A stretch of DNA of 64,000 bases from Eudorina sp. 2006-703-Eu-15 (Eukaryota; Chlorophyta; Chlorophyceae; Chlamydomonadales; Volvocaceae). How positions within the stretch are numbered: position 1 is the first letter of the stretch; every line of letters starts with the position of its first letter. Position numbers and translations under genes: made by a program. The DNA is taken from the NCBI GenBank assembly GCA_003117195.1, contig BDSI01000033.1, positions 62,001 to 126,000 on the forward strand, read 5' to 3'. The notes beneath the pieces are model-generated. The model ran no database searches and was not told where the DNA came from. It saw only the letters and a program-made list of their open reading frames with translations. This document shows positions 27,912-40,296 of the stretch, in pieces.

Positions 27912-29375
27912 TGCCGCCTCTGGTGCGGCGGCGAGCACGTGGGTGGGGGACGCGGTCCCACGCGGGTGATCTGTTGCGGCGAACACGTGGGGTACGCGAT
28001 CCCACGTGGGTGGTTGATACCAAGTGATGAACAGGGGGGCCCGCAGAGTAGCACCGCTGCGCGTTGGTGTGCAAGGTTCCTGTCTGCGGATTGTTGGCCC
28101 TCTTTATGGAGCTGGCGCGGGTGGCGCGCCTGCTTTTGGAGGTGGAACCAAGTCGTGATTGATTCGAAGTGGGCAAAAAGGACGCACGCGATGCCGGCGA
28201 GCGGGGCTGACGCTGCATGCGGGTTGTGACGAGATGCGATCTCAGCTTCTCAGCTGGTGGCGCTCTAGGCAGCGGGGAGACGGTCCCACTGGGGAATCGC
28301 TCATATTTTGTGGCACCTCTAGGACTTACACGACGAGGTCGCAACGCAGAGAGCTGTGATCGGGGAGGGCACTGTGGTGGTGGCGGTGATCGCAGGCTTG
28401 GCTTGCCTCAGACCGAGGCACAGCCGGGGCGAAGCGTCTGTGGGGGCGAAGCGTCTGTCGTACGCATGTGAAGGTGAATCCCCAAAATTCGTGTGCTCGC
28501 TTGCAGCAATCCCAAGACCATGTGTGCCACCGCCTTAACTGACAACCGTGAGAGGGCCAGCCACGGCAAGTCACCACACCGTGATGACCTGGGCGCTCCC
28601 GACTAAACGGGCTGAGCATGCGGTTCGTTATGCATCCAGTTGGCAGGCCCTCAGCATTGTATCTCCGATTCAGCCCTTCGGAACAGGAGCCTACAAGAGG
28701 TTTGTCCTTGGCTTTTTGCTGTCTAGAATTCTGGGACGGAATGGTAACCTTCTGGGTCTTGGTCGCCGTGCCGGCGGGCCCCGGGAATCCGTTGCCCCGG
28801 CCTGAAATATGCCCTCGGCCTGGGCGCTGTTCGCTGGGAGCCGGTCGAACGACGGCATGTAGATGTTAAACGAGTGACACAAGTTGTGTTACCCATGCAC
28901 TCCATGTGAAACGTACTCCGGTTGCTATTGGATGAGGCATGGTACTCGTGGAGCAGGAGACAGACACTTCTTTGTAAGTAAATGCTGTGTGTCGCGGTGC
29001 AGCATCTGGGAGAAGGGTAATGCATTTGTACGCAGCAACATGTGACGTGACGAAAACTACCAACCAGTTTGACGATAGCGCTTGATTGATCCGTCACGCC
29101 ATGAAAGACGCACTTTGTCATGCAGGCACGGGCATGGCACTTAGGAAGCAAAGGTTACAAGGGGGACCAGCAAATAAGCTGCTCGCTCACCGTATAGGCA
29201 CAAACACAGACCGACTGTTCATCCTACCCCAGGGGCATGCCGTGCACTAGGCAGGGAGCCATGCCAAAGAAAATACAGCCAAGGACCACCAGCGCCCAGC
29301 CTTCATAGCATTCAGTATACGGTACGTATGGAAAAGCAGCCAATCACCACCAGCGCCCAGCCACCGCAGCAGTCC
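27912..29375. other. Intergenic region between RING-CH gene and the 10-kb inverted-repeat unit
   Basis: No gene recognised. A 16-base direct repeat (ggggcgaagcgtctgt) occurs twice at about 28430-28460. Just outside the left arm, a block containing caccagcgcccagcc is tandemly duplicated with a 61-base offset (about 29277 and 29338). A TGTAA at about 28974 is the nearest obvious poly(A) motif for the RING-CH gene but is about 1 kb away. Confidence 0.4.
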
Positions 29376-29845
29376 AGTAAGGCAGCGGCCACAGATCAGG
29401 GCTCAGGGCGCGCCCTGAGAAAATACGTCTTTTGGGGGGTCAGGGCGCGCCTCGGCCAGGGCGCGCCCTGACCCCCGAAACCGGGATGCAGGCGGACGCG
29501 TCTGGTCTGTAACTACAGACTGTCCTAGTAGCGGTTTTTGTTTATTTTGATTATCTGGTGGCTGACCCTGCGACCTGCAGGCGTCCGGTCGGCCCGCCCC
29601 AAATCAGGGCTCAGGGCGCGCCTCGGCCAGGGCGCGCCCTGACCCCCGCAACCGGGACGCAGGGGGGCACGTCTTGTCCTATATTACAGGCTGTTCTGGT
29701 AGCGGTATTTGCTTCTTTTGAATATCTGGTGGCTGACCCTGGGACCTGCAGGCGTCCGGGTCGGCCCGCCCCAAATCAGGGCTCAGGGCGCGCCTCGGCC
29801 AAGGCGCGCCCTGACCCCCAGGACGGGGGTGCAGGGACAGGCCTT
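29376..29845 (+). repeat. Left inverted arm with three palindromic modules
   Basis: Modules recur about every 171 bases. Each has a hairpin-forming core reading CAGGGCGCGCCTCGGCC then a complementary GGGCGCGCCCTGACCCC (about 29434-29476, 29607-29647, 29778-29820), then a less GC-rich spacer with GTAGCGGT and TATCTGGTGGCTGACCCTG. The outermost core TCAGGGCGCGCCCTGA (29403-29418) is a perfect 16-bp palindrome. Confidence 0.85.
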
Positions 29846-30736
29846 CCTTGCTCTTAATAATTGCGACTTAACTCTTGGGATGTATTCGGGCAACGCTGAC
29901 TTTCGCGTCTTTGTTAATCCGTGCAACGCTTCGACCTGCCTCGTCATCGACCTGCACCTTTATGGATAGCCTCCTTAATTGCAGATTATGTTGCAAATGC
30001 GAAACGTATGTTTCATCGTAGATGTTGATGAATATGTTAAATTCAAGCAAGCGAGCTGGTATGGACGAGCCAGGAGGCTCATTGGCCGTAACCAAGCAGC
30101 ACACAGAATACCAATCATGAGAAGGAGACACAACGGAAACGATTGAAGAAGGATAGGGGTGAAATAAACGCCACTGGATATTACGAATTCGTTGGATCCT
30201 GCCGGACATCGTAACAGCTCGTATCTTCATAGCACTGGCGAACACGAGCTCGCTGGAAATTGTAACATAACCGTCATTACTATTACTGGCGGCTCATGAT
30301 CAGTCATGCGGTCTGTCACCCACTGTACATACAGCACAAATGCGGAGCTGCGGGGCCCAGAGCATGTTGAAAAGCGCGATCTACCGTTGGCAATCAGACA
30401 CGATCCGCGAGGCCCAAATTGTTATATGCCAATGACGGTTTTTCTGCCCGCCTGGCCCCGTTGGGTGGTAGCACGCCCTAGAGGCACTCTCGCGCAGTGC
30501 TCCTTGCGGCACGGCTCTCACTCCACCTCCCATACGCGAAGGACAGGACGCCCCTCCGAAGTCAAGAAACTGGCTTACTGTTTTACAGTCAGTTAGCAGA
30601 GACAGTCTCCATACGCGACGGCAACAAAGCCCCACGGCAAACTCTCCTTGGCATAGCCCGACGACATTCTCAATCCACCCATGTATGTAGTAATGTGCAT
30701 GAGTGCCCAAAGACAGTCCGGGATGTTGCAACCCTA

Positions 30737-31021
30737 ATGGCCCGCAAGCAAAAGCACGCCCGCACCCAAAGCAGGCCGTACTGGCAGTTATTGTACTACA
30801 TTCCCGCATGCGCAAATTGCAAGCCGAAACCTCACGACATGGGAGACAGGGCCGCCGCCTGGAGCCAGTACCCTACCAGCCTGGTTCTCCAAACCCTCTG
30901 GACCGCTCTTCGGGCCACCTGGCTCTGGGCCGTTTGGTGCCACAAGCAAGCCGCCGACGCCGAGCCCTGCCCTTCCAAAGCTGTCGTCACCCAGGTTGTC
31001 AGCGAGCTCCAGCGGCTCATG
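30737..31021 (+). pseudogene. Coding-like fragment truncated by a minisatellite; retroelement origin possible
   Basis: About 95 codons with a clear G/C third-position preference run from an ATG at 30737 into the 20-bp repeat array, where the frame becomes repetitive. The piece has CANCKPKP and a Trp-rich helix-like stretch (TLWTALRATWLWAVWCHKQA). Trp-rich helices of this kind occur near the C-terminus of some LINE-type reverse transcriptases, but no catalytic motif is present, so this is only a suggestion. The fragment has no plausible end of its own. Confidence 0.3.
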
Positions 31022-31625
31022 TCTCAGGCCCCCACACGCGGTCTCAGGCCCCCACGCGCGGTCTCAGGCCCCCACACGCGGTCTCAGGCCCCCTTTACGC
31101 TGTGCCAGGCCCCCACACGCGGTCTCAGGCCTCCACACGCGGTGCCAGGCCCCCACACGCGGTCTCAGGCCCCCACACGCGGTGCCAGGCCTCCACACGC
31201 GGTGCCAGGCCCCCACACGCGGTCTCAGGCCCCCACACGCGGTCTCAGGCCCCCACACGCGGTGCCAGGCCTCCACACGCGGTTTCAGGGCCCCACACGC
31301 TGTCTCAGGCCCCCTTTACGCTGTGCCAGGCCCCCACACGCTGTCTCAGGCCCCCACACGCGGTGCCAGGCCTCCACACGCGGTGCCAGGCCCCCACACG
31401 CGGTCTCAGGCCCCCACACGCGGTGCCAGGCCCCCACACGCGGTCTCAGGCCCCCTTTACGCTGTGCCAGGCCCCCACACGCGGTCTCAGGCCCCCACAC
31501 GCGGTCTTAGGCCCCCACACGCAGTCTCAGGCCTCTACACGCGGTCTCAGGCCCCCACACGCGGTGCCAGGCCCCCACACGCGGTCTCAGGCCCCCACAC
31601 GCGGTCTCAGGCCCCCACACGTACG
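31021..31625. repeat. 20-bp minisatellite array ending in an inverted unit
   Basis: About 30 units of CCCCCACACGCGGTCTCAGG, with variants CCTCCACACGCGGTGCCAGG and a 21-base form containing CCCCCTTTACGCTGTGCC (about 31089, 31308, 31452). Right after the array, 31624-31650 reads the unit on the other strand (GGCCTGAGACCGCGTGTGG). All frames across it are repetitive and need not be translated. Confidence 0.95.
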
Positions 31626-32397
31626 GCCTGAGACCGCGTGTGGAGGCCCCGGTGACTTGCTCCTGCTCGATGTTTTCCTTCCCGCCGCGCTACGTGGACT
31701 TCCCTCGTCCGGACAGCTGCCTTGCCCCCTCGCCCCCCGCCGCGCAATTACGGTTATGCACCAACTGGCCGCTTTGCTTAGTCTCTCGCCACACAGCTGC
31801 TGTGCTCCACCGGCTCCACCAGCGGAGCTTAGAAGGCACTTCAGCAAGTGCCTCGTTGGCCACGCTTCTCCTGTAATGGGAAGACAGATGGTCAGACACA
31901 CACAATGTTATGTTGCAGAATGCGGTTGTTCACAACGGCAAATGACGATTGCAGGCCACGCTGGCGAGTACACGAGTCAACCAAGCTCAAATCTTACTCA
32001 AGGCAAGCTTGCGAACTCTGTTCTCACCAGCATGCGTAATCTCGGCCCAATATGAAAGCCATGTTATCGGTCTGTCGCATTCTGTCGCTTGCGAAGCCAG
32101 CCCCAAGAGCTGCCAAAACGCGAAGAGACAAAGCAACCGGACAGTCTCTACTTAATAATTGTTTTACAGTTCATGAGAGCGTCCATGGGATGAGCGTATG
32201 GTACGAATAAGGCAGGGTCAACTTGGTCCAGCGGTCAAGGATAGCAATGTGCATGATGGCACAAGAACGTGAAAGCAGTAATATGTGGTATGTAAGTATA
32301 ATGATAATAGACAAGAGTCAAGGACGCTTGAGAAATCAGAAGCATGCGGCAAACGTGCTTCCGTACTGAATAACAAAGAGCCCTCTCGCCGTCATGC

Positions 32398-35300
32398 GAC
32401 GGCTGGCACCCTTGATGGGAGTCTCCTGGTGCGACGGCGCGTCCAGATTCGTTTGGGCGCCCATCTGGACGGTGCCGCAAGGCTGTTCCGGATGGGTTTA
32501 ACCCTAGGGCCGTTTCCAGGATCGTGATTCGGGCCATGCGCGACTCCCTGTTCACCGAATCTCACGCTGCCCTTTCCCCTGACGGCTGACACCCTTGATG
32601 GGAGTCTCCTGGTGCGACGGCGCGTCCAGATTCGTTTGGGCGCCCATCTGGACGGTGCTGCAAGGCTGTTCCGGATGGGTTTAACCCTAGGGCCGTTTCC
32701 AGGATCGTGATTCGGGCCATGCGCGACTCCCTGTTCACCGAATCTCACGCTGCCCTTTCCCCTGACGGCTGGCACCCTTGATGGGAGTCTCCTGGTGCGA
32801 TGGCGCGTCCAGATTCGTTTGGGCGCCCATCTAGACGGTGCCGCAAGGCTGTTCCGGATGGGTTTAACCCTAGGGCCGTTTCCAGGATCGTGATTCGGGC
32901 CATGCGCGACTCCCTGTTCACCGAATCTCACGCTGCCCTTTCCCCTGACGGCTGGCACCCTTGATGGGAGTCTCCTGGTGCGATGGCGCGTCCAGATTCG
33001 TTTGGGCGCCCATCTAGACGGTGCCGCAAGGCTGTTCCGGATGGGTTTAACCCTAGGGCCGTTTCCAGGATCGTGATTCGGGCCATGCGCGACTCCCTGT
33101 TCACCGAATCTCGCGCTGCCCTTTCCCCTGACGGCTGACACCCTTGATGGGAGTCTCCTGGTGCGACGGCGCGTCCAGATTCGTTTGGGCGCCCATCTGG
33201 ACGGTGCTGCAAGGCTGTTCCGGATGGGTTTAACCCCAGGGCCGTTTCCAGGATAGTTTTTCGGGCCATGCGCGACTCCCTGTTCACCGAATCTCGCGCT
33301 GCCCTTTCCCCTGACGGCTGGCACCCTTGATGGGAGTCTCCTGGTGCGACGGCGCGTCCAGATTCGTTTGGGCGCCCATCTAGACGGTGCCGCAAGGCTG
33401 TTCCGGATGGGTTTAACCCTAGGGCCGTTTCCAGGATCGTGATTCGGGCCATGCGCGACTCCCTGTTCACCGAATCTCACGCTGCCCTTTCCCCTGACGG
33501 CTGGCACCCTTGATGGGAGTCTCCTGGTGCGACGGCGCGTCCAGATTCGTTTGGGCGCCCATCTGGACGGTGCCGCAAGGCTGTTCCGGATGGGTTTAAC
33601 CCTAGGGCCGTTTCCAGGATCGTGATTCGGGCCATGCGCGACTCCCTGTTCACCGAATCTCACGCTGCCCTTTCCCCTGACGGCTGACACCCTTGATGGG
33701 AGTCTCCTGGTGCGACGGCGCGTCCAGATTCGTTTGGGCGCCCATCTGGACGGTGCTGCAAGGCTGTTCCGGATGGGTTTTACCCTAGTACCGTTTCCAG
33801 GATCGTGATTCGGGCCATGCGCGACTCCCTGTTCACCGAATCTCACGCTGCCCATTCCCCTGACGGCTGGCACCCTTGATGGGAGTCTCCTGGTGCGACG
33901 GCGCGTCCAGATTCGTTTGGGCGCCCATCTGGACGGTGCCGCAAGGCTGTTCCGGATGGGTTTAACCCTAGGGCCGTTTCCAGGATCGTGATTCGGGCCA
34001 TGCGCGACTCCCTGTTCACCGAATCTCGCGCTGCCCTTTCCCCTGACGGCTGACACCCATGATGGGAGTCTCCTGGTGCGACGGCGCGTCCAGATTCGTT
34101 TGGGCGCCCATCTGGACGGTGCTGCAAGGCTGTTCCGGATGGGTTTAACCCCAGGGCCGTTTCCAGGATCGTGATTCGGGCTATGCGCGACTCCCTGTTC
34201 ACCGAATCTCGCGCTGCCCTTTCCCCTGACGGCTGGAACCCTTGATGGGAGTCTCCTGGTGCGACGGCGCGTCCAGATTCGTTTGGGCGCCCATCTAGAC
34301 GGTGCCGCAAGGCTGTTCCGGATGGGTTTAACCCTAGGGCCGTTTCCAGGATCGTGATTCGGGCCATGCGCGACTCCCTGTTCACCGAATCTCACGCTGC
34401 CCTTTCCCCTGACGGCTGGCACCCTTGATGGGAGTCTCCTGGTGCGACGGCGCGTCCAGATTCGTTTGGGCGCCCATCTGGACGGTGCCGCAAGGCTGTT
34501 CCGGATGGGTTTAACCCTAGGGCCGTTTCCAGGATCGTGATTCGGGCCATGCGCGACTCCCTGTTCACCGAATCTCACGCTGCCCTTTCCCCTGACGGCT
34601 GACACCCTTGATGGGAGTCTCCTGGTGCGACGGCGCGTCCAGATTCGTTTGGGCGCCCATCTGGACGGTGCTGCAAGGCTGTTCCGGATGGGTTTTACCC
34701 TAGTACCGTTTCCAGGATCGTGATTCGGGCCATGCGCGACTCCCTGTTCACCGAATCTCGCGCTGCCCATTCCCCTGACGGCTGGCACCCTTGATGGGAG
34801 TCTCCTGGTGTGACGGCGCGTCCAGATTCGTTTGGGCGCCCATCTAGACGGTGCCGCAAGGCTGTTCCGGATGGGTTTAACCCTAGGGCCGTTTCCAGGA
34901 TCGTGATTCGGGCCATGCGCGACTCCCTGTTCACCGAATCTCGCGCTGCCCTTTCCCCTGACGGCTGGCACCCTTGATGGGAGTCTCCTGGTGCGACGGC
35001 GCGTCCAGATTCGTTTGGGCGCCCATCTAGACGGTGCCGCAAGGCTGTTCCGGATGGGTTTAACCCTAGGGCCGTTTCCAGGATCGTGATTCGGGCCATG
35101 CGCGACTCCCTGTTCACCGAATCTCACGCTGCCCTTTCCCCTGACGGCTGGCACCCTTGATGGGAGTCTCCTGGTGCGACGGCGCGTCCAGATTCGTTTG
35201 GGCGCCCATCTGGACGGTGCCGCAAGGCTGTTCCGGATGGGTTTAACCCTAGGGCCGTTTCCAGGATCGTGATTCGGGCCATGCGCGACTCCCTGTTCAC

Positions 35301-36905
35301 CGAATCTCACGCTGCCCTTTCCCCTGACGGCTGACACCCTTGATGGGAGTCTCCTGGTGCGACGGCGCGTCCAGATTCGTTTGGGCGCCCATCTGGACGG
35401 TGCTGCAAGGCTGTTCCGGATGGGTTTTACCCTAGTACCGTTTCCAGGATCGTGATTCGGGCCATGCGCGACTCCCTGTTCACCGAATCTCACGCTGCCC
35501 ATTCCCCTGACGGCTGGCACCCTTGATGGGAGTCTCCTGGTGCGACGGCGCGTCCAGATTCGTTTGGGCGCCCATCTGGACGGTGCCGCAAGGCTGTTCC
35601 GGATGGGTTTAACCCTAGGGCCGTTTCCAGGATCGTGATTCGGGCCATGCGCGACTCCCTGTTCACCGAATCTCGCGCTGCCCTTTCCCCTGACGGCTGA
35701 CACCCATGATGGGAGTCTCCTGGTGCGACGGCGCGTCCAGATTCGTTTGGGCGCCCATCTGGACGGTGCTGCAAGGCTGTTCCGGATGGGTTTAACCCCA
35801 GGGCCGTTTCCAGGATCGTGATTCGGGCTATGCGCGACTCCCTGTTCACCGAATCTCGCGCTGCCCTTTCCCCTGACGGCTGGAACCCTTGATGGGAGTC
35901 TCCTGGTGCGACGGCGCGTCCAGATTCGTTTGGGCGCCCATCTAGACGGTGCCGCAAGGCTGTTCCGGATGGGTTTAACCCTAGGGCCGTTTCCAGGATC
36001 GTGATTCGGGCCATGCGCGACTCCCTGTTCACCGAATCTCACGCTGCCCTTTCCCCTGACGGCTGGCACCCTTGATGGGAGTCTCCTGGTGCGACGGCGC
36101 GTCCAGATTCGTTTGGGCGCCCATCTGGACGGTGCCGCAAGGCTGTTCCGGATGGGTTTAACCCTAGGGCCGTTTCCAGGATCGTGATTCGGGCCATGCG
36201 CGACTCCCTGTTCACCGAATCTCACGCTGCCCTTTCCCCTGACGGCTGACACCCTTGATGGGAGTCTCCTGGTGCGACGGCGCGTCCAGATTCGTTTGGG
36301 CGCCCATCTGGACGGTGCTGCAAGGCTGTTCCGGATGGGTTTTACCCTAGTACCGTTTCCAGGATCGTGATTCGGGCCATGCGCGACTCCCTGTTCACCG
36401 AATCTCGCGCTGCCCATTCCCCTGACGGCTGGCACCCTTGATGGGAGTCTCCTGGTGTGACGGCGCGTCCAGATTCGTTTGGGCGCCCATCTAGACGGTG
36501 CCGCAAGGCTGTTCCGGATGGGTTTAACCCTAGGGCCGTTTCCAGGATCGTGATTCGGGCCATGCGCGACTCCCTGTTCACCGAATCTCGCGCTGCCCTT
36601 TCCCCTGACGGCTGGCACCCTTGATGGGAGTCTCCTGGTGCGACGGCGCGTCCAGATTCGTTTGGGCGCCCATCTGGACGGTGCTGCAAGGCTGTTCCGG
36701 ATGGGTTTAACCCCAGGGCCGTTTCCAGGATCGTGATTCGGGCCATGCGCGACTCCCTGTTCACCGAATCTCGCGCTGCCCTTTCCCCTGACGGCTGGCA
36801 CCCTTGATGGGAGTCTCCTGGTGCGACGGCGCGTCCAGATTCGTTTGGGCGCCCATCTAGACGGTGCCGCAAGGCTGTTCCGGATGGGTTTAACCCTAGG
36901 GCCGT
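32398..36905. repeat. 183-bp satellite array, about 24.6 copies, with 9-unit higher-order repeat
   Basis: Unit starts at 32398, 32581, 32764 and 32947 show a period of exactly 183 bases. Each unit runs from GACGGCTGRCACCCTTGATG through GGCGCGTCCAGATTCG, GGATGGGTTTAACCCTAGGG and TTCCAGGATCGTGATTCGGG to GCTGCCCTTTCCCCT. Diagnostic variants recur 1,647 bases (9 x 183) apart: TGACACCCATGATGG at 34051 and 35698, a GGGCTATGCG change near 34170 and 35820, and CTGGTGTGACGG near 34805 and 36452. The array stops mid-unit at 36905. Since 183 is 61 codons, one minus frame stays open for over 1,500 codons, an arithmetic result rather than proof of a protein. Confidence 0.95.
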
Positions 36906-36937
36906 GATGAGATGATGAGAAGAGTACGTAATCCTTC

Positions 36938-37291
36938 ATGACCCCCGATCTCGTAATGTACTTTAGCCGTGCTCGATCCAATTTAGAACAAAATTGTAGC
37001 CCACCGAGTCCCAGTGCACAGCATCCGACAGAGGCGGGCATCAAGAAGCTGTTCGGTTCCGTCACTTCTCGCAAAAAGCCTCACGTGACTCCTCCCCTCA
37101 ACTCAGTCAAGTCACGCGGCATGGGCCCTGCCGGCTTTGGCAGCAAGTCAGTTCCGCTGGCAGCTTGGCTGATATGGTGCTTGCGGGAGTTGAACCCACA
37201 GATCCTGGCCATCCAGCAGCACCAGCAAGTGGACCCCTTAACTGCATCTCGCGCATATATCCGATGCAACCGCTGCGAGCCGGACGACTAG
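36938..37291 (+). pseudogene. Possible C-terminal coding fragment after the satellite array
   Basis: An open frame of 117 codons ends at TAG 37289-37291. Its second half looks protein-like (KKPHVTPPLNSVK, AAWLIWCLRELNPQILAIQQ, YIRCNRCEPDD with a CxxC). The first half has poor composition and the satellite begins 33 bases upstream, so any original 5' part is gone or displaced. I do not recognise the family. Confidence 0.25.
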
Positions 37292-37304
37292 GCCAGCTAG
37301 CCCG

Positions 37305-38175
37305 GCGTGATTCATAGCCGCCGAAATCTAAATCCTCAAGGCACCCACAAACCCCGTCCCATGGCCATCCGTCAATCGCCCCAGCGTGACGCCTACTGCG
37401 CAAAACTCCCATCAAAAAGCTGAACAAGGCGGTAAACAGGGTGACGCCAGCAAGCGTTGCCCAGCTGCCATTCCGTCATCAAATCCCTATCGTGCCGCGT
37501 AGCATGTTGCACGTTCCCGATCAAATGCAGTGTGCCTGGTATCCACAAGCCCGCCCCGCGCCCAGTCGTTTACCTGCTGTCAAAGTGGCCGCTGCTACCT
37601 GTGCCGTTGCCGCCGCTGCCCCCTCCACCGCCAATATGTCAAGTTCAGAACGCTGCGCCGCTGTGCCCTGTGAACGGCAAAAAAGGGAAGGCAGTCGTTA
37701 AGGGCAGCACGTTGCGTCCCTAGTGAAATCGTACCAAGCCAACCAGCACGCCGCCCACAAATCAATCCCAGCCACATGGCAATCCCCATGCAAATCAAGA
37801 AGCCCCTCGTGATTCATCACCGCCGATTATGAACCCGCAAGGCATCCACAGGCCCCGCCCCGCGCCAATTCATCGATTGCCCCAGTGTGAAGCCTAGTGC
37901 GCGGCATCCACGTCAAAGGCTGAACGAGGCGGTAAACAGGGTGATGCCAACAAGTGTTGCCCAGCTGACATTCCGTTATCCAGACCCTAATGTGCCGCGT
38001 AGCATATTGCATGTCCCCTATCAAAAACAGTGTACGTGGTACCCGCAAGCCGCCCCTCCCCCAGTCGTTTACCTGCTGTGAAAATGGCCGCTGCTACCTG
38101 TGCCGTTGTCGCCGCTGCACCTTCCACCGCCAGTGTGCCAAGTTCAGAACGCAGCGCCGCTGTGCCCTGTGAGCA
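37305..38175. repeat. Diverged tandem duplication, period about 503 bp
   Basis: Block one (37305-37690) and block two (37808-38175) share CGTGATTCAT, GGCGGTAAACAGGGTGA, GTTGCCCAGCTG, GTGCCGCGTAGCAT, CAGTCGTTTACCTGCTGT and GCCGCTGTGCCCTGTGA, at roughly 80 percent identity by eye. A frame common to both (SRLPAVK then AAATCAV) is broken by a one-base length difference in block two, suggesting decayed coding sequence. Another frame of block two is Cys-rich (CRCRRCTFHRQC) but is not preserved in block one. Confidence 0.7.
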
Positions 38176-38943
38176 CTTGTTCATGAGCAGGTTAACTAAC
38201 GGCATTCTCGTACAACCCAAGCGTCCGAACTAAGCGCTGGCGTTCCGTGCGCTTTCCGACGCGAGGGCGAGGAGGCTGATGAGAAGCGCTTCCGAAGCTT
38301 GCCGAGCTCAGCGACGCGGTCTGAGAACTTCTTCGCCTACAACGTGGATGATCGACAGCTCCTCGGGAAAAATGTTAACTATTGTCGCGCCTTCTTCTGC
38401 AAACCCAAACAACGATTAAATCTGTATGCGGATGTTGCTTCCGCATAAATAGAACGCGTTATCTCAACATAACCGTCTAATACCTGCAGGCGTTCCAGTT
38501 CCTTCTTTTCCAAGACACCCACATTATATGTCTCAAGTTTGGTTTGCTTCTCCGCTGGCCGGTTCGATGTTCGTTGGAGGGGCCAGCGCTGGATGCATTC
38601 TCAAGGGAAGCGAGCACGCTAGATCCCGCAACTACCACTACAACAATCGCAAATTAGAAACCAGCCATAAAGGATCAAAACTACGATTTCAATACTTGCC
38701 CGATTATGGGCATGGTTGGTTCCCTTCTTATCCCTTAAAGGTGTCCCTACTCTGAAGGATATTTTACAAGATATGTAAGGTCAGCGATCAATCACCAAGG
38801 GTGTAGCTATTTTTGACATTATGATACATCCTCAAGCCGTTGTTCCGTACTTCAGGATCCAAAGACTACCGGCTAAGATGAAAGTTAATGTGGCTTGCAA
38901 CCCTATGTTCTCACTTACATATCCTTATCATCATATTTCCGTG

Positions 38944-39412
38944 TATGGACGCGTCCCCCTGTGTCCCAGTTCAGGGGGTCAGGGCGCGCGCGCCTCGGCC
39001 GAGGCGCGCCCTGACCCCTGATTCCGGGCGGGCCGGCACCGACCCCTGCAGGTCCCAGGCTCAGCCAACAGATGATGAATTACCGTTACCAGGACAGCCT
39101 GTAATATAGGACAAGACGTGCCCCCCTGCGTCCCAGTTTTGGGGGTCAGGGCGCGCCCTGGCCGAGGCGCGCCCTGAGCCCTGATTTGGGGCGGGCCGAC
39201 CGGACGCCTGCAGGTCGCAGGGCCAGCCACCAGGTAATCAAAATAAACAAAAACCGCTACTAGGACAGTCTGTAGTTACAGACCAGACGCGTCCTCCTGC
39301 ATCCCGGTTTTGGGGGTCAGGGCGCGCCCTGGCCGAGGCGCGCCCTGACCCCCAAAAAGACGTATTTTCTCAGGGCGCGCCCTGAGCCCTGATCTGTGGC
39401 CGCTACCTAACT
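38944..39412 (-). repeat. Right inverted arm with palindromic modules
   Basis: Its reverse complement follows the left arm module by module, including AAATACGTCT, GACGCGTCTGGTCTGTAAC, CGTCTTGTCCTATATTACAG and CAAATCAGGGCTCAGGG. The innermost module is the most diverged and carries extra GCGC units (about 38974-39017). Confidence 0.85.
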
Positions 39413-39740
39413 CCAGCAGTCAGAGTTTAAGCACTGGCACTCAGCAGCAGAAGGGCAAACCGACTTCTGTACGCCACCATTCTTAACATCCACTACCATG
39501 CCCTCCCTTCAATATCCATCCCCTCTCTGTCCGCTGCAACCTTCCGGGGCATCTGGACCAACCTCACCCAACCTCCGCTTACATAAAAGCAGCTTTCTTA
39601 CCTGACCAGGGACCCCGAGGTTCTCCTTGCATTCTGACCAGGCAAAGTCAGACACGACATCAAGTCCACTTCACATTGAGCACCCCAAGCAAGCAACCCA
39701 CCGGCATACTCAAACATAGCTCAGCCTGGCTAAGGATGCC
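39413..39740. other. Flank of the inverted-repeat unit, nothing recognised
   Basis: About 330 bases without a convincing frame, repeat or RNA gene. Confidence 0.4.
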
Positions 39741-40069
39741 CGTGGACCGTTGCCCGGGCATACGACTCGGCGGCTGACCGGCTGACTGTGTACTTCACGA
39801 GGTCAACCCCAGACACCGAACTGCAGGCGACGGATGACCCGCGGATCTCCGTGCTGAAGGGGGGGCGGTCACGGTCCATCCTTAGACTGGCTGAGCTATG
39901 GTTTCCTTAGCTTCATGGATCACCACACCTTCCCACGTGCCGTGAAACCCCTTCAGCACGGAGATCCGCGGGTCATCCGTCGCCTGCAGTTCGGTGTCTG
40001 GGGTTGACCTCGTGAAGTACTCAGTCAGCCGGTCAGCCGCCGAGTCGTATGCCCGGACAACGGTCCACG
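39741..40069. repeat. 122-bp inverted duplication of a gene fragment, potential long hairpin
   Basis: Plus bases 39741-39864 repeat the reverse complement of 39948-40069 with two mismatches seen (ttgcc for ttgtc, actgtgt for actgagt). The 83-base spacer holds the last codons and stop of the DUF2283-like frame. A read-through transcript from the minus-strand gene would fold into a stem of about 120 bp with a loop of about 83 bases. Volvocine algae process long hairpins of this kind into small RNAs, so a small-RNA locus is possible. Confidence 0.85.
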
Positions 40070-40296
40070 GCGGCTTGCCATCCAGGTTGTCAGGGGTGTC
40101 CCAGAAGTGGCAGGGTAGCCGCTTGGATGCATCTTGGATATCAAACGACACAATCCTGTTGTCGACCGTGTAGTCCACAAGGAGGCCTGGTACCACGCTG
40201 TCAGACGCAAAAATCAGTCCCCGGAAGGTCTTCATGAAGTAGAAGGTCACAACGTCGCTCTCCGCAAAAATTCTCGACTCGGGGGGACAGAAGGGC
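39882..40296 (-). CDS. DUF2283-like protein, last exon (5' exons not resolved)
   Basis: The exon follows a good acceptor (gttttcttctgcag) and ends at TAA 39882-39884, giving about 137 residues. The first half reads AESDVVTFYF, then SVVPGLLVDYTVDNRIVSFD and IQDASKRL, which fits the DUF2283 signature of an Asp-Tyr-rich strand followed by a GIEI-DAS-type motif. The second half repeats the beginning (VVRAYDSAADRLTEYF), suggesting a tandem pair. DUF2283 proteins are small and of unknown biochemical role. I could not fix an upstream exon: possible GTAAGT donors on minus lie near 40370 and 40415, but no clear coding exon goes with them. The gene may be intact with missing exons or a displaced fragment; the adjacent inverted copy of its own sequence favours recent rearrangement. 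Confidence 0.5.

Follow-up and report, generated by a model that had tools for sequence, protein, structure and literature searches.

A multicopy, non-autonomous DNA transposon with palindromic arms and satellite arrays in the green alga Eudorina

Layout of the element

A stretch of 64,000 nucleotides from Eudorina sp. 2006-703-Eu-15 (contig BDSI01000033.1; here called the window, C33:62001-126000, where C plus a number is a contig label of this genome) contains an element of 10,039 bp that spans positions 29375-39413 and carries the 8-bp duplication CAGCAGTC on either side. Positions without a contig label are in window numbering. A sequence-only reading had described this locus as a unit with inverted, palindromic arms flanked by the 7-base word CAGCAGT; a flanking repeat does exist, but the exact ends lie at 29375 and 39413 and the repeat is the 8-bp duplication. 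The termini of the element nearly match (left, 5'-CAGTAAGG; right, 5'-GAGTTAGG), and its features are as follows.

29367..29374, + strand: left copy of the target site duplication CAGCAGTC, 8 bp, by flank reading
29375..29836, + strand: left arm with the terminus 5'-CAGTAAGGCAGCGGCCAC and three palindromic modules at a spacing of about 171 bp
29403..29418, unstranded: terminal 16-nt perfect palindrome TCAGGGCGCGCCCTGA of the left arm, position by direct reading
29436..29475, unstranded: 40-nt palindromic core 1, with two GGCGCGCC boxes, one inverted relative to the other
29607..29646, unstranded: 40-nt palindromic core 2, by folding
29779..29818, unstranded: 40-nt palindromic core 3
31021..31621, + strand: 20-bp minisatellite, 29.9 copies
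32398..36905, + strand: 183-bp satellite array, 24.6 copies, 9-unit higher-order period
37299..38172, + strand: internal direct duplication, halves 37299-37673 and 37801-38172
38957..39413, - strand: right arm, terminus 5'-GAGTTAGGTAGCGGCCAC on the - strand
38988..39018, unstranded: innermost palindromic core of the right arm
39142..39181, unstranded: 40-nt palindromic core of the right arm
39313..39352, unstranded: 40-nt palindromic core of the right arm
39370..39385, unstranded: terminal 16-nt palindrome of the right arm, position by direct reading
39414..39421, + strand: right copy of the target site duplication CAGCAGTC, 8 bp, by flank reading

The arms are truly inverted and are built of units of about 171 bp with GC-rich hairpin cores, much as the sequence-only reading had held. 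Their outer parts (29376-29710 and 39078-39412) pair over 335 nt at 96% complementarity and an inner extension (29724-29809 and 38988-39073) over 86 nt at 88%, and the left arm has a tandem period of 171 bp (2.2 copies, 29436-29819). The word GCGCGCC marks the cores at 29445, 29616 and 29788 on the left (spacing 171 and 172) and at 38988, 39151 and 39322 on the right (spacing 163 and 171). Each arm contains one perfect 16-nt palindrome, TCAGGGCGCGCCCTGA, that starts 29 bases from the tip, and three longer, double palindromes at intervals of 163-172 bp. When four of the six cores were folded as 40-nt pieces of single-stranded DNA, they formed hairpins (-19.7 to -24 kcal/mol; z -5.0 to -7.1); a piece of 17 nt taken at the terminal palindrome folded no differently from shuffles (z -1.25). 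The core palindromes may be hairpins when single-stranded or dimer sites in double-stranded DNA, and folding alone does not choose between the two.

Of the 22 open reading frames (ORFs) of 80 aa or longer, six were scanned with Pfam, as was a 302-aa piece of the satellite's 1560-aa open frame. None had a match that reached its curated cut-off (the 302-aa piece had matches below cut-off to DUF382, E 6e-05, and SH3_12, E 0.002); within this scope no transposase was detected in the element, in agreement with the earlier impression that none is visible. The halves of the internal direct duplication cross-match at about 82-84% in other copies of the element.

Copies, target duplications and uninterrupted sites

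We searched the genome of the same strain (181,203,499 bases in 3033 contigs) with the arms, scoring 40 of 72 candidates, so that the copy count is a lower bound. The search gave at least 145 match rows, a large number of which were single modules, and it revealed further arm pairs at different spacings, which the sequence-only reading had suggested looking for. The exact left terminus occurs at 28 places and the exact right terminus at 22; allowing up to two mismatches, the counts rise to 148 (control pattern, 41) and 36 (control, 12), indicating that the inexact matches are partly due to chance. Both arms and an interior are present in 12 copies (C33, which is the window copy, C172, C98, C91, C78, C247, C244, C8, C135, C189, C701 and C55), of which the one on C8 is incomplete. 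Another copy is split across C667 and C355; by its target sequence it is the same insertion as that on C701, and an insert of about 10.9 kb is nested in it. This insert is flanked by the short duplication TGACA, and the four of its ORFs that were scanned had no Pfam match. A copy of about 40 kb (C79:168090-208255) has a 7-bp duplication and contains a 9.6-kb run of N. It also includes a tandem array with a period of 170 bp and an ORF of 265 aa, for which six weak relatives were found in the genome and one unnamed protein elsewhere. Eight copies that still have a target duplication are shortened, with lengths from 103 bp to 2.4 kb; the smallest of them, which retains two boxes, may have shrunk after insertion.

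The flanks of 23 paired insertions were read, with C701 and C667/C355 counted once, C336 and C638 counted once, and the C834 and C1328 pairs left out. A perfect duplication abuts both termini in 20 of the 23; it is 7 bp long in 15, 8 bp in 4 (the window copy, C78:566083, C189 and C701) and 9 bp in 1 (C247). When the listed duplications were compared by eye, no common word was seen among them.

Uninterrupted target sites were found for three insertions, in line with the search for empty sites proposed at the outset. Joined flanks representing 15 complete junctions and part of a 16th served as queries, with 40 of 2299 candidates scored. The junction of the C8 insertion is spanned at at least 36 other places, and at 35 of these the match covers the full 180 nt (100% identity at 21, 97-99% at the rest). 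For the C701 insertion, an uninterrupted site is present at C375:14305-14491 (99%), and the C91 insertion is in a tandem repeat of about 149 bp, other units of which span the junction. At the C55 junction there was a weaker, partial match (85%), and for the remaining queried junctions no uninterrupted site was present among the matches listed from the scored candidates. The C8 insertion (flanks C8:1719000-1725600) sits in a repeat with at least 36 other near-identical places.

These results show that the segment 29375-39413 belongs to a multicopy family of DNA transposons that insert as a unit, with a target duplication mostly of 7 bp (7-9 bp). Its fixed inverted ends, characteristic target duplication and uninterrupted target sites are those of a non-autonomous terminal inverted repeat (TIR) DNA transposon, and together with the many pairs and their differing spacings they bear out the earlier suggestion of an unusual non-autonomous element. 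Another explanation, that the arrangement is an artefact of the assembly, could draw on the draft state of the assembly, on the run of N in the 40-kb copy and on the one insertion split over two contigs. The ends and their order are, however, identical at a dozen loci, nearly all of which have their own duplicated target, and this repetition leaves an artefact with a negligible likelihood. Array lengths may nonetheless be compressed in the draft assembly.

Origin of the arms

Among 11 copies, the left arms are 97.3-100% alike (average 98.9%) and the right arms 97.0-100% (average 98.8%), whereas similarity between the two arms within a copy is lower, at 90.7-93.1% (average 91.5%). In a tree of the arms of these copies, all left arms form one clade apart from the right arms, with a support of 1.000. 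The separation indicates that the two arms diverged once, before these copies spread, and that they were copied as a unit and not made by fold-back at each locus. The sequence-only reading had considered a structure made by fold-back replication. The long inverted arms with their hairpin-forming cores would fit a local origin by fold-back or template-switch replication, without transposition. This explanation is contradicted by the two clades, and also by the fixed ends, the target duplications and the uninterrupted sites, and we consider it highly improbable.

Just beyond the right end of the element lies a second inverted repeat (39740-39862 and 39948-40070; 123 nt, 98% complementary, 85 nt apart).

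Satellite arrays inside and outside the element

The two arrays in the interior differ widely in length among copies. Eleven copies have between 3.6 and 24.6 of the 183-bp units, always with the same fraction (0.6) of a unit, and between 11.9 and 29.9 of the 20-bp units; at other loci the lowest number of 20-bp units read is 6.9, and the numbers reach at least 32.8 183-bp units and 50.9 20-bp units (C273, cut off at the limit of what was read). In a linear fit, the two array copy numbers account for 99.6% of the length variance among the 11 copies and leave 4.84-4.94 kb in ten of them and 4.63 kb in the C8 copy, corresponding to a core of about 4.9 kb. Growth and contraction of the arrays thus proceed in whole units, while the rest of the element is conserved. 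Unequal exchange or slippage would account for the changes in both the 183-bp and the 20-bp arrays.

Related satellite DNA is also found more widely. A 22-mer of the 183-bp unit has 735 exact occurrences in the genome (control, 0); 174 of them fall in a set of 17 loci that does not include every copy. One long 183-bp array extends at least over C91:480203-497763, and no element termini were found near it at up to two mismatches for the right end and up to one for the left; this array may lie in a copy with worn ends. In the 40-kb copy on C79, a second satellite, also with a 183-bp period, fills 172077-188449 and 198104-201151 around the gap (about 108 units), and it has no similarity to the window satellite beyond 8-base words. 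Movement of the element could have dispersed satellite DNA. Because two unrelated satellites with 183-bp monomers occupy the same ends, and because the window-type repeat also forms the C91 array, one can picture a single palindromic-ended frame that acquires satellite arrays, disperses them as its cargo and gives rise to long arrays in the genome, but we regard this broader role as doubtful.

A sister family

A second family of elements has the left terminus CAGTAAGGAAACGGCC, of which there are 33 exact occurrences. We read the left end of three copies (C58, C8 and C3) and both ends of one, on C8, which is 1025 bp long and has the 7-bp duplication AGTAGTG. The layout follows that of the window family, with the terminus, a single palindrome 29 bases in and a double palindrome at offset 61; further palindromes lie near offsets 250 and 413, versus 236 and 404 in the window family. 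The first 16-bp palindrome is TCAGGGCGCGCCCTGA in the window family and TCGGTGCGCGCACCGA in the sister family, and the four differences between them form two compensated pairs. This comparison suggests that palindrome symmetry may be under selection, being kept while the sequence changes, although it involves two pairs in one comparison. The sister copy at C58:513194-514468 has five or more palindromic modules at intervals of 167-172 bp, and the number of modules therefore varies. In both families the modules recur at roughly 150-180 bp, a spacing near the nucleosome repeat.

How the element may be mobilised

Overall, we favour a model in which the element is a palindromic-arm transposon mobilised in trans, with an array length that changes by whole units, and we assign it a probability of about 0.85. 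A transposase supplied in trans would bind as dimers to several palindromic boxes in each arm, with the arm repeats serving as a row of binding sites; the bound transposase would then pair both ends, and cut and paste the unit.

The transposase itself was sought in the genome with a KDZ (Kyakuja-Dileera-Zisupton) protein, the KDZ Pfam model and the RNase H domain of the P superfamily. The best-supported candidate, by circumstance, is an enzyme of the KDZ superfamily, for which we see roughly even odds. Two fungal Kyakuja families are reported to have 7-bp duplications, a 5'-CA and a 3' TG, and no terminal inverted repeats (PMC12730594). The KDZ likeness of the window family consists of the length of the duplication (7 bp in Kyakuja, as is found here, or 8 bp in Zisupton) and of the 5'-CA of Kyakuja. 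KDZ sequences are also plentiful in this genome, with 38 stretches that match one KDZ protein (48 of 48 candidates scored) and 7 that match the Pfam model. The KDZ loci on C3, C4, C86, C120 and C130 lie inwards of GAGCTAYGGACGGGTCC-type ends, that on C120 with a mismatch. The ends GAGCTATGG of one KDZ lineage have an 8-bp duplication in five of seven pairs read by eye (C24, C40, C109, C86 and C60) and none in the other two (C50 and C3), and a second lineage starts with CAGCTATGG (two copies, C18 and C98, without the other end). The KDZ families and the window family share a start of [CG]AG, reach A(T)GG and lie beside GC-rich inverted repeats, a likeness that is short. A separate cluster at C10:1685701-1700142 comprises six KDZ-like gene stretches that share a strand and are spaced at 2.5-3.0 kb, resembling a tandem gene array.

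Several observations weigh against this picture. Three of the 23 paired insertions have no duplication (C135 and, by eye, C336/C638 and C19), and the commonest core changes within the family are uncompensated (of the GGGC...CCCC and GGGG...GCCC types). No coding copy with window-family ends was found, and among the ends listed for either family no KDZ match lies within 50 kb, except on C3. Kyakuja is reported to have a TG far end and no inverted repeats, whereas the window element reads 5'-CA..TC-3' and has long inverted arms. In addition, the coding KDZ elements whose ends were read have other ends than the window family, and there is no KDZ match in the window element or in the 40-kb copy on C79.

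The related transposase-coding element with the same ends that the sequence-only reading had envisaged did not come to light. The KDZ gene on C3, a few kb from the sister-family end at C3:424248 and in the same orientation, belongs to its own element (C3:412755-420141) with the inverted ends GAGCTAYGGACGGG, and its proximity was therefore discarded as a sign of a KDZ link. Copies on C14 and C23 were rejected as coding copies, having, about 1.5 kb inwards from one end, only short end similarity and no window-like interior, and the unmatched adjoining parts of the C10 and C667/C355 copies, read for ORFs, yielded no coding copy.

The same non-autonomous transposon might instead be moved by an enzyme of the hAT, Mutator-like or P/Galileo superfamily, a possibility that we place somewhat short of an even chance. 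Elements of the hAT superfamily make 8-bp duplications and have the terminal motif YARNG, which the CAGTA of the window element does not match. For P/Galileo, the 7-bp duplications and the long repetitive ends described for Galileo are in favour, but the genome has a single short match to the P-superfamily RNase H domain (C135:278753-278905; above the cut-off at E 1.6e-4, covering 51 of the 137 positions), and this lies about 90 kb from the C135 copy. A Mutator-like enzyme is favoured by Tetris, an element with repeat-bearing ends and 8-10 bp duplications that its authors put in Mutator.

Relation to known elements and implications

The elements nearest in design to the window element are Tetris, Galileo and Cg_HINE. 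Tetris, a foldback-like element of Drosophila virilis, is likewise non-autonomous and has long inverted ends that hold tandem repeats (about 220 bp in Tetris); these repeats also form satellite-like arrays of kb size, and a short relative shares the Tetris ends. The window element has the long inverted ends of tandem repeats and the non-coding middle of a Tetris-type foldback element but not its 8-10 bp duplications, those here being mostly 7 bp. In Tetris it is the end repeats that become satellite, whereas in the window element the satellite is central, and the word palindrome is absent from the main text of the Tetris paper. Galileo, of the P superfamily in Drosophila, resembles the window element in its long, internally repetitive inverted ends, which contain several transposase binding sites, and in its 7-bp duplications; its target consensus GTAGTAC is not seen at window-family targets, and host and termini differ. 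Cg_HINE, non-autonomous Helentrons of the Pacific oyster, share the central satellite-like arrays within a mobile element, with arrays of 13 clusters in 11 elements and some related to classical satellite. They are classed as Helentrons, whereas the duplicated targets and inverted ends of the window element point to cut-and-paste movement.

The earlier statement that no named family has this design therefore stands in part, given the long repetitive inverted ends of Galileo and Tetris and the central arrays of Cg_HINE. We found no description of the window element in the open-access literature, which was represented mostly by the opening parts of abstracts; Repbase and supplementary repeat libraries lay outside this search, and the element may be listed in such a library under another name.

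In summary, the family provides a clear case, in a green alga, of an element of the cut-and-paste type that carries a satellite array and has uninterrupted sites. The differing array lengths in near-identical copies make array growth traceable copy by copy. The end palindromes, which have changed between sister families with their symmetry kept, offer a handle on how a transposase reads repeated subterminal sites.

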